A DNA stretch of 64,000 nucleotides from Chryseosolibacter indicum (lineage in GTDB: Bacteria > Bacteroidota > Bacteroidia > Cytophagales > Cyclobacteriaceae), in contig NZ_JAHESD010000003.1 in the NCBI RefSeq assembly GCF_018598585.1, positions 124,001 to 188,000 on the forward strand. Reading direction: 5' to 3'. The notes beneath the pieces were generated by a model, which worked only from the letters and a program-made list of their open reading frames with translations, ran no database searches and was not told where the DNA came from. Each line of letters begins with the position of its first letter. Positions within the stretch are counted from its first letter, which is position 1. Made by a program: the position numbers and the translations under genes. This document shows, one piece after another, positions 6,253-54,926 of this stretch.

Positions 6253-6756
6253 TTAATTACAGTCTTGCAGCATGTCACTTGCTTCTTTAACATCAATAAT
6301 TCCCTTTTCATGACTCCAGGAATTGTAAATGTAAGTGGAAATCTCAGCTATCTCTAAATCGCTTAAAAGGGCCATAGGAGGCATGCGTTGGTTGTAGGCC
6401 TTTCCATTTACAATAAGCTCGCCTTCTTTTCCGTACCGAATAAGACACAATACATCTTTCAGATTCTTGTCCATGTAATCTGATTCGTTCAATGGGGGGT
6501 AAACTAAACCTAAACCCTTGCCATTTTTTTGGTGACAGTTACTGCAATGTTTAAGGTAGAGCTGCTCACCCTGGTTATAGTATTGTTGGAATTTAGTAGA
6601 AGAATTTTTGGATATTCTATCCTCGCTATTCTTATTACAAGAAACTAGCAACGAACCAAAAAGTAAAAAGTAAAAAGAAGAGAGCCTTATAAGGCTTTTA
6701 GCTTTCTGCCTTTTTCCTCTAAAGCTAGGCCTATTTACTTTCTCTCTTATACTCAT
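6253..6756 (-). CDS. Lipoprotein cytochrome c with a repeat-derived signal region
   Basis: Monohaem cytochrome c of 167 residues. The lipobox LVSC puts the lipidated cysteine at C40, and the haem motif is C71-S-N-C74-H75. QRMPPMALL offers axial methionines. It overlaps the SCO gene by 26 bp and is the third gene of the hemJ-SCO-cytochrome operon, which suggests a respiratory role. Codons for residues 15-34, the basic and hydrophobic part of the signal peptide, are made from a degenerate 7-bp repeat (see 6657-6713). No other ATG lies in frame before the lipobox, so this start is used although 14 residues precede the repeat. Confidence 0.85.
   Translation of the reverse strand: MSIREKVNRPSFRGKRQKAKSLIRLSSFYFLLFGSLLVSCNKNSEDRISKNSSTKFQQYYNQGEQLYLKHCSNCHQKNGKGLGLVYPPLNESDYMDKNLKDVLCLIRYGKEGELIVNGKAYNQRMPPMALLSDLEIAEISTYIYNSWSHEKGIIDVKEASDMLQDCN
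6657..6713. repeat. Degenerate heptamer repeat inside the cytochrome signal-peptide region
   Basis: On the plus strand, three A-rich heptamers (CAAAAAG, TAAAAAG, TAAAAAG at 6657-6677) are followed by a 12-bp palindrome GCCTTATAAGGC (6684-6695). T-rich heptamers follow (GGCTTTT, AGCTTTC, TGCCTTT at 6693-6713). The two arms are roughly complementary, so the element can fold. It matches the style and unit of the element at 18406-18475. Confidence 0.65.
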
Positions 6757-7375
6757 TCTTTAATCTTTCCAAATCTGCCATCAGCCTGTTTACATCCTCT
6801 TCTTTTGTTCCATCATATTTGCCACGTATTCTTCGCTCTTTATCAATTAACAGAAAAGCTCCGCTGTGAATAAATCCATCCGGTTCTGCTTTGTCTTCCA
6901 TTGCAGTAGCAAAGTAACTTGTTTGAGCAATATTGTAGATAGAATCTTTTTTGCCCGTTACAAAATGCCACTTGCTGCTCTTAACACCGAGGCGTTCAGC
7001 AAAGTCTTTTAGTTTCCCGACAGTATCATACTCGGGATCTATGGTATGAGATAGGATTAAAATTTCAGGATCATTTTCAATCGAATCATAAACACGTAGC
7101 ATCTGTGTTTTCATAATCGGGCAGATCGTTCTGCATGATGTAAAGAAGAAGTCAGCTACGTAGATTTTATCTTTAAACGTTTCGTTCGTTACTATTTGGC
7201 TGTCCTGATCGACAAATCTGAAATCAGCAATGGTATGATACACCGTATCACTACCCTCTACATTGCGTTCTCCGAGGATAGGTAAATTTTGCTCTTTCTT
7301 TCTAATGCAGGCACCGAACAGAAAGCAAAGTGCAAGGAACAATGCAATTGCATTTGTAATCTTAGATCTATTCAT
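6731..7375 (-). CDS. SCO1/SenC family copper-binding lipoprotein
   Basis: Thioredoxin-fold protein of 214 residues that helps assemble the CuA site of cytochrome c oxidase or acts as a thiol reductase. The signal peptide ends in lipobox FGAC with C23. The copper-binding pair is C81 and C85 (TSCRTICP), and the third ligand is the histidine in DGFIHSGAF. It overlaps hemJ upstream by 8 bp and the cytochrome gene downstream by 26 bp, so the three are translated from one message. Context fits maturation of a haem-copper oxidase, although the oxidase genes are not in the window. Confidence 0.92.
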   Translation of the reverse strand: MNRSKITNAIALFLALCFLFGACIRKKEQNLPILGERNVEGSDTVYHTIADFRFVDQDSQIVTNETFKDKIYVADFFFTSCRTICPIMKTQMLRVYDSIENDPEILILSHTIDPEYDTVGKLKDFAERLGVKSSKWHFVTGKKDSIYNIAQTSYFATAMEDKAEPDGFIHSGAFLLIDKERRIRGKYDGTKEEDVNRLMADLERLKNEYKRESK

Positions 7376-8771: not shown

Positions 8772-9034
8772 CTCTGTACTCGTGCTGTTAATACGCAATG
8801 CCGATATTATTGTTTCAATTTAAAAAGGATGGCTCCTGGTACTCCCCTCTGAAAGTTATTTTAAAATTGTCCTAGCACCAACGCAATCTATTAACGAAAA
8901 AAATTGAGCTTACTAAAGAGTAAAAATGTTAATCTGGCCATTTTTTCGTATATTATTATGCATTTCTTGTAAGTCTGTAAGGTCTTATTCCCGGTCATTT
9001 TTAATAAAATATTAGATAAGCTAAATGTTAGTAG

Positions 9035-9078
9035 GAGAGGAGGATGAGTGGAGAAGGAGTGGAGAATGACTGGAGAAT
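9035..9078. repeat. Tandem 11-bp repeat, four copies
   Basis: Four adjacent 11-mers read GAGAGGAGGAT, GAGTGGAGAAG, GAGTGGAGAAT and GACTGGAGAAT. They lie in the ~500-bp non-coding stretch between the MOSC gene and the phosphorylase gene. The consensus is close to the reverse complement of the 11-mers at 54759-54791. The rest of this gap (8772-9034) is AT-rich with nothing recognisable. Confidence 0.7.
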
Positions 9079-9082
9079 GGGT

Positions 9083-18400: not shown

Positions 18401-18405
18401 GAATT

Positions 18406-18475
18406 GCTTTATGCTTTCAGCTTTAAGCTTTTTGCTTCGAAAGGGCAGAGGCACAAAGCAAAAAGCAGAAGGTTG
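18406..18475. repeat. Heptamer-repeat hairpin in the rpsQ-rplN gap
   Basis: Five heptamers read GCTTTAT, GCTTTCA, GCTTTAA, GCTTTTT, GCTTCGA (18406-18440). Complement-type heptamers follow: AAGGGCA, GAGGCAC, AAAGCAA, AAAGCAG, AAGGTTG (18441-18475). The centre holds a perfect 11-bp inverted repeat, GCTTTTTGCTT at 18427-18437 with its partner at 18456-18466. The element fills most of the gap and would be transcribed within the ribosomal message. Confidence 0.8.
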
Positions 18476-18509
18476 ATAATAAAGGCAAACGAGATAAGAT
18501 TTAAAGAAT

Positions 18510-54610: not shown

Positions 54611-54758
54611 AGTAAGGCCTGTATAAGGCCCTAAAATCCCTCTAAACCGGTATTCGGATTTAGCCCTGTTTGTCTACGATAAAACCTTACGCGTGGGGAT
54701 GAGGCTGTTACAAGGCTGCCTTTTCTGTTAGTGAAGCTTTAGTATGGCTATAGTCGTG

Positions 54759-54791
54759 CTTCTGTCATTCTTCTGTAATCCTTCTGCCAAC
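54759..54791. repeat. Tandem 11-bp repeat, three copies
   Basis: CTTCTGTCATT, CTTCTGTAATC, CTTCTGCCAAC in register, then CTTC. The reverse complement (AATGACAGAAG and so on) resembles the GAGTGGAGAAG units at 9035-9078. It lies in the 316-bp gap between oxyR and the IMPACT gene. That gap also holds a weak GGCCT/AGGCC hairpin just after oxyR and nothing else I can name. Confidence 0.65.
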
Positions 54792-54926
54792 CTTCATAAA
54801 AACGCGTTTTTCATGAAGAATCATTGAATTTACAAAGCAGTATCACAGAATCTGCACTGATGCCACAAGCCAGCCATTCAGAACCAACAAGGCCTCATCT
54901 CCGCAATACCTATAATTTGCAATTAT

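Follow-up and report, generated by a model that had tools for sequence, protein, structure and literature searches.

The window (the whole stretch of 64,000 nucleotides that was analysed) carries a cytochrome c lipoprotein gene whose 5' part contains a repeat built of 7-base units, located at an overlapping junction with a SCO1/SenC gene. The features concerned are given below, with residues numbered in the cytochrome.

6253..6756, minus strand: cytochrome c lipoprotein gene, 167 aa (ORF; Pfam Cytochrome_CBB3 4.6e-9, Cytochrom_C 4.3e-8)
6637..6648, minus strand: lipobox LVSC, residues 37-40, just beyond the repeat, read from the sequence
6657-6713 as first described, better limits about 6654-6718: whole repeat, encoding residues 13-34
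6657..6677, minus strand: pyrimidine arm, CTTTTTA x 2.9 on the coding strand, residues 27-34, the hydrophobic core
6684..6695, no strand: palindrome GCCTTATAAGGC, residues 21-25
6694..6718, minus strand: purine arm, residues 13-21, GCTTTNN class (coding strand NNAAAGC)
6731..7375, minus strand: SCO1/SenC gene, upstream neighbour of the cytochrome gene
18404..18476, no strand: second heptamer element of the window, intergenic, pyrimidine arm first

On the coding strand, the repeat runs from the purine arm AGGAAAAAGGCAGAAAGCTAAAAGCC through the palindrome GCCTTATAAGGC to the pyrimidine arm CTTCTTTTTACTTTTTACTTTTTG; on the window strand it reads as TAAAAAG units at 6657-6677, the palindrome at 6684-6695 and then TTTTAGCTTTCTGCCTTTTT. 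The TAAAAAG units, palindrome and pyrimidine units reported by an earlier note on this DNA are therefore all present as written. Read on the minus strand, positions 6657-6713 correspond to residues 34 to 15, and the full repeat encodes the basic and hydrophobic core of the signal peptide (residues 13-34) directly before the LVSC at 37-40, in agreement with that note. The N-terminus, MSIREKVNRPSFRGKRQKAKSLIRLSSFYFLLFGSLLVSC, consists of a basic n-region, a hydrophobic h-region and a lipobox with Cys, and passes a crude script rule for lipoprotein signal peptides. SCO1 overlaps the cytochrome gene by 26 bases at its 3' end, and the repeat begins 12 nt past the SCO1 stop. The genome contains no second full-length copy of the element, contrary to a MITE or palindromic mobile element with conserved ends; the best other match, which falls on the array in the gatB-downstream gene described below, covers 30 bases (E 0.06), and the one other exact copy of the palindrome lies, by eye, without heptamer arms. 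The claim that elements of the same type occur elsewhere is borne out in the window by the one at 18404-18476, where the downstream gene is presumably rplN and the flanking genes are taken to be ribosomal protein genes.

The only common in-frame start codons before the lipobox are an ATG at codon 1 (6756) and a TTG at codon 36. The sole ATG sits within the SCO1 3' end, with an in-frame stop two codons upstream of it, and a start at codon 36 leaves no signal peptide. Because no usable start lies beyond the repeat, any signal peptide of this protein requires translation of the repeat. Hereafter, G000 denotes this genome, G001 and G002 two congeners, and G017, G019, G026 and G035 members of other genera. 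By eye, the orthologues of G002, G017, G026 and G035 likewise start inside the SCO1 3' end and that of G019 probably does so too, with a GTG; the G001 orthologue starts 96 bases past the end of the upstream gene.

The repeat belongs to a class of units found throughout the genome. The pattern GCTTTNNGCTTTNNGCTTT (three GCTTTNN units, at most one mismatch) gives 28 overlapping matches at 17 places in G000, including the purine arm of the cytochrome repeat, and the reversed pattern gives none. Sorted by hand, the 17 places comprise five in signal-peptide coding sequence (four genes, both arms of one counted), six intergenic and six in other genes or unclear, and some of them fall within ordinary coding sequence and may be chance matches. 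Four units of GCYTNNN match 8 times in G000, 127 times in G001 and 8 times in G002 (reversed control: 0, 10 and 3). Segments scoring at least 14 at lag 7 number six in 464 kb of G000 and 48 in 400 kb of G001; lags 6 and 8 in the same samples give 0 to 5, and lag 11 gives seven in G000. The 7-base units are dispersed at many places and specific to period 7, as in the STRR of cyanobacteria, which are heptamer repeats.

Samples of 858 kb of G000, 400 kb of G001 and 386 kb of G002 were surveyed for arrays with a lag-7 score of at least 12, and arrays outside ORFs account for 9/14, 55/61 and 68/85, respectively; judged by the counts per sample, heptamers are more abundant in both congeners than in G000. 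Within 220 nt, an inverted partner accompanies 42/61 arrays in G001 (reversed control 8/61) and 50/85 in G002 (control 8), counts that take in both arms of an element, and none of the 14 arrays in G000 at the threshold used. At 68 G001 places among the matches listed (merged by eye), neighbouring GCYTNNN pairs are purine-first in 15 cases, pyrimidine-first in none and on the same strand in four. When all arrays are ordered by overall purine content, the arm order is mixed (purine-first versus pyrimidine-first 29:10 in G001 and 21:25 in G002), which, together with the pyrimidine-first element of the window, indicates that purine-first order holds as a rule for GCYTNNN units in G001 but not for arrays in general. 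The distance from an array end to a stop codon is at most 5 nt in 14/63 cases in G001 and 30/89 in G002 (0.22 and 0.34, against 0.06 and 0.10 under random placement within the same gaps), and the same holds for start codons in 10/49 (0.20 against 0.06) and 7/63 (expected 0.07), respectively. The G000 figures, 3/7 stop boundaries (expected 0.26) and 4/13 start boundaries (expected 0.14), are too few. An almost pure array of ATTGATT-type heptamers, 171 bases long, lies at G001:C5:1034843-1035013 (lag-7 score 153) and is likely a marker of variable length.

Arrays of period 11 (e.g. ATAACCCGTAG, TGGCACGGTGC) occur in the window at 9030-9079 and 54728-54795. In 1.24 Mb of G000 there are 24 of them, 21 lying beyond called ORFs, compared with none in 400 kb of G001 and one in 386 kb of G002. 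The window arrays at 54759 and 9033, considered as members of the heptamer class, were excluded on account of this period.

Across the contig collection, four units of GCTTTNN form at least 117 stretches, at 80 loci among the matches listed. Of 84 array rows at those listed loci, 60 lie outside kept ORFs, 15 beyond residue 60 and nine within the first 60 residues. Among these nine, L235 (titled Mucilaginibacter) encodes a lipoprotein signal peptide by the script rule, and L274 (95 aa) and L282 (136 aa) pass the crude SPI rule only. Among 30 loci from the draw on the phylum described next, L138, L145 and L153 were dropped, L145 being a repeat-made frame, L153 antisense to a 733-aa frame and L138 ambiguous. 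A related-protein scan of the collection gave 17 pattern stretches and no confirmed relative. A plasmid search matched 59 records, but identity stayed below 60% throughout and no match spanned 80% of the query. In a draw from the phylum, the pattern occurs in 22/395 genomes and the reversed control in 16/395, nearly as often, so no inference is drawn from its spread.

Protein matches to the cytochrome were found in 48/59 genomes and represent orthologues only in part. Thirty loci were read: 25 have a lipobox by rule, four of the remaining five have, by eye, a Cys behind a run of hydrophobic residues, and the fifth was read in the wrong frame. The same arrangement is seen in the orthologues whose junctions were compared. 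Orthologues have signal peptides without the repeat, indicating that the repeat replaced an existing signal peptide and that export was not created anew, contrary to the idea that insertion could have produced a new signal sequence. The lag-7 score is 14.6 in G000, 14.2 in G001, 18.6 to 20.6 in G002, 7.6 to 8.0 in G019, and does not exceed 6 in the remaining 21 loci with a lipobox. The G001 signal peptide is made from TGCCTAC units encoding FCLLPIAYCLLCLGC, its score being reached in 33/5,000 recodings, and TGCCTACTGCC occurs at six sites in 400 kb of that genome (reversed control 0). The G002 N-terminus is made from AGGAGTA and AGTCAGG units (20.6 reached in 0/5,000 recodings); here, the heptamers lengthen the N-region, and the hydrophobic core is not repeat. 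The expectation that orthologues would carry unrelated signal peptides and lack the repeat held in part: the signal peptides of all four other genera are unrelated, and three of them (G017, G026 and G035, score 4) lack the repeat, but G019 shows a weak lag-7 signal (7.6, reached in 163/5,000 recodings). No empty site with clean ends was found, the orthologous cytochrome junctions being, by eye, too diverged to show ends.

At the G002 locus L030, an insert, GCCACCCACCTTTGCCAAGGCTACGGCGGGCAAGG, lies between two heptamer arrays and is read as part of PPTFAKATAGK. The core of this insert occurs once in the 386 kb sample, and the peptide string PPTFAKATAG has no match in the literature searched.

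Two further lipoprotein genes were followed across genomes; both were picked for their G000 arrays, so that their G000 rows are non-independent evidence. GldD (TIGR03512) has a match in 38/39 genomes, and 27 of the 30 loci read have a lipobox; its presence points to the Bacteroidota as the phylum of G000. Its lag-7 score is 57.4 in G000, where GGCAGTG-like units are followed by GCTTT units forming the h-region before LTAC, 17.8 in G002 (GTCCACT units) and at most 7.4 in the other 25/27, in which control lags reach up to 9.8. The second gene encodes a thioredoxin-like lipoprotein (NCBIfam matches below cut-off) and lies downstream of what we take to be gatB. Thirty loci were read, 26 with a lipobox, G001 being unreadable by rule, and the scores are 11.6 in G000, 12.6 in G017, 7.8 in G002 and at most 6 in the other 23; as a single control lag scores 11 in the orthologue L380, the values of 11.6 and 12.6 are weak. 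In G038, which belongs to the same order, the heptamer-made GldD N-terminus is matched 13 times, 12 of these being short frames elsewhere in the genome, so the GGCAGTG class may be abundant there.

Four further exported-type proteins of G000 share the anatomy of the cytochrome: GldD, the thioredoxin-like lipoprotein and the products of the following ORFs, presumably a metal-efflux adaptor and a TolC-like protein.

C95:90919 and C95:92168-92327: two candidate metal-efflux ORFs, starting 23 and 17 bases before the upstream stop

All five G000 genes with translated arrays begin inside the ORF upstream of them. In 1.24 Mb of G000, which contains 309 signal-peptide-type genes, same-strand overlap with a neighbour is found for 22 signal-peptide genes and 77 others, and in-frame arrays occupy 3/22 of the former junctions compared with 0/77 of the latter (Fisher 0.0098, or 0.044 with the cytochrome gene left out); these figures are optimistic, as contigs with known matches were sampled first and only C95:90919 is new among the three genes. 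The GldD array (score 100.4) is left out of the 3/22 because the stretch ends inside the gene. When the three species are pooled at a score of at least 12, arrays occur in 5/407 signal-peptide N-termini and 5/958 others, a slight excess, and the latter five were judged by eye to reflect start codons called too early. Similarly, where ORFs lacking a signal peptide carry in-frame arrays at the N-terminus (one row in G000, five in G001, five in G002), the start codons look by eye to have been placed upstream of the true ones. We interpret this distribution as tolerance, in that arrays settle at junctions and can persist in translated form where charge and hydrophobicity suffice and the N-terminus is cleaved off.

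A signal peptide rich in Lys and then in Phe/Leu could mimic heptamers by chance in an AT-rich genome. The tandem part is by itself weak (2.9 units, TRF score 40, lag-7 score 14.6), and a palindrome with up to two mismatches is not rare (4 matches, 2.6 expected). Among 20,000 synonymous recodings of residues 1-40 with the codon use of this genome, the lag-7 score is equalled in 52, the three-unit GCTTTNN match is reached in 105 and the palindrome in 191, so that each feature taken singly is modest; given the 309 signal-peptide-type genes in 1.24 Mb, about one case would be expected from the lag-7 score alone. However, the lag-7 score and GCTTTNN match coincide in only 5/20,000 recodings, and all three features in none. 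Furthermore, in the first 858 kb of the genome, with signal-peptide type assigned by a crude script, 221 signal-peptide-type N-termini contain three lag-7 segments scoring at least 14 and none at lags 4, 5, 6, 8, 9, 10 or 11, and among 502 other N-termini lag 7 yields no such segment and lags 10 and 11 yield one apiece. With the units matching a genome-wide class that has no control matches and heptamers at the same site in both congeners, chance is a very improbable source, and the heptamer repeat described by the earlier note is confirmed as real.

How the heptamers came to lie there admits several readings. Slippage may have built the arrays locally, in sequence past the stop that is under little constraint, the signal peptide drifting into repeat form without any insertion. 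This would suit the different units at the same site in each congener, as well as the presence of AGTCAGG only at the cytochrome site and of AGGAGTA at two sites in 386 kb of G002, and slippage is the cause proposed in PMC4679880 for the abundance of heptanucleotide repeats. However, GCTTTNN (17 places in G000) and TGCCTAC units recur within one genome, the arms in G001 form inverted pairs far more often than in the reversed control, and the units are degenerate at two positions; plain slippage accounts directly for none of recurrence, pairing or degeneracy, and it appears rather unlikely. An RNA hairpin acting in processing or attenuation between SCO1 and the cytochrome gene, with translation as a by-product, would be consistent with the palindrome and its T-rich tail (one terminator-like match, minus strand, 6696-6683) and with the paired inverted arms in G001 and G002. 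The predicted fold, however, is no better than that of shuffled sequence (-17.6 versus -16.5 kcal/mol, z -0.41, 66/200 shuffles as good), terminator matches number 1 against 2.2 expected, and the G000 arrays lack inverted partners at the threshold used, making this role improbable. A contingency locus is conceivable, in which heptamer number would shift the frame between start and lipobox and turn the lipoprotein on or off, in the manner of the Neisseria CTCTT-repeat gene that we take to be opa. Seven is not a multiple of three, the units do lie between start codon and lipobox, and CTCTT repeats in the signal-peptide region switch surface genes in Neisseria (PMC3899988). Nevertheless, just 2.9 units are identical and the other G000 arrays are degenerate, so that a switch of this kind seems extremely improbable.

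The reading we favour as probable is that an element of the dispersed heptamer class moved in and took over the role of an older lipoprotein signal peptide. Beyond what the earlier note described, it takes in the overlapping junction, the other heptamers in the congeners and a class that is dispersed, mostly intergenic and often beside stop codons. The position of the repeat, its class and its difference between species are observed directly, as is its translation from the sole usable start if a signal peptide exists; arrival of the element from elsewhere, as opposed to growth on the spot, is our inference, and the peptide that it encodes is predicted from sequence to be a working signal. A degenerate element would have come to rest 12 nt 3' of the SCO1 stop and, since the cytochrome gene starts 26 bases before the SCO1 end, would have fallen within the cytochrome reading frame. 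Its purine arm would supply the Lys/Arg-rich n-region and its pyrimidine arm the Phe/Leu-rich h-region, replacing the older signal peptide with the lipobox Cys kept downstream. A purine-first inverted repeat could in principle read as basic and then hydrophobic from either strand; the cytochrome element has stops on its other strand.

A 7-base unit encodes the same cyclic 7-residue peptide in all three frames; GCTTTCT, for instance, gives AFCFLLS in every frame and CTTTTTA gives LFTFYFL. On a given strand, therefore, a pure array has either three open frames or none, and the frame in which it lands does not alter its chemistry, which may make such an array an unusually safe sequence to translate at an exported N-terminus. 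The values for being hydrophobic on one strand, observed versus shuffled units, are 0.41/0.36 in G000, 0.15/0.18 in G001 and 0.07/0.06 in G002; observed units are no more signal-like than shuffled ones, giving no sign that arrays were selected as signal donors. Such repeats seem to rewrite export signals occasionally. Tentatively, heptamer arrays might even be a recurrent, frame-proof source of signal peptides, settling by operon stops, being translated at overlaps, persisting only at export N-termini and repeatedly rewriting conserved lipoproteins within one genus, a generalization that we regard as possible and somewhat short of an even chance.

Signal peptides evolve quickly, and where they came from can seldom be seen; here, the source sequence is still legible. 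The same junctions differ between congeners, and the frame-independent peptide of 7-base units makes the idea testable. The case also cautions that annotation can readily misplace gene starts and N-termini at junctions of this kind. No prior description of heptamer or heptanucleotide repeats as signal peptides was found, as judged by titles and abstract openings in a search of mainly freely available literature.

Among known systems, the Yersinia palindromic sequence/RU-2 repeat fused into YPO1552 (Delihas) forms part of a predicted signal peptide (PMC2229807), and likewise is a small repeat supplying such a part; RU-2 appears there as a 168-bp element in one putative exported protein, whereas the present case involves short degenerate heptamers, several conserved lipoproteins and species-specific arrays. 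Rickettsia palindromic elements (105-146 bp) also lie in frame in protein genes, of which many are conserved (PMC2229807), but the arms here are short heptamers and the translated cases found are N-termini of exported-type proteins. The Neisseria CTCTT repeat resembles the present one as a short tandem unit, not a multiple of three, that encodes signal-peptide residues; it differs in consisting of pure pentamers that switch expression (PMC3899988), compared with 2.9 pure units in the G000 cytochrome repeat, where no sign of switching is seen. TAACTGA heptamers of Beggiatoaceae, some Cyanobacteria and five Bacteroidetes (PMC4679880) and STRR are similarly dispersed, mostly intergenic 7-base arrays near gene ends, whereas the arrays here comprise many unit families, often degenerate, inverted-paired in G001 and G002, and in some cases translated as signal peptides. 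With precedents known for repeats within signal peptides, palindromic elements in genes and dispersed heptamers, a signal peptide made of heptamers is, on this comparison, best regarded as a variant.
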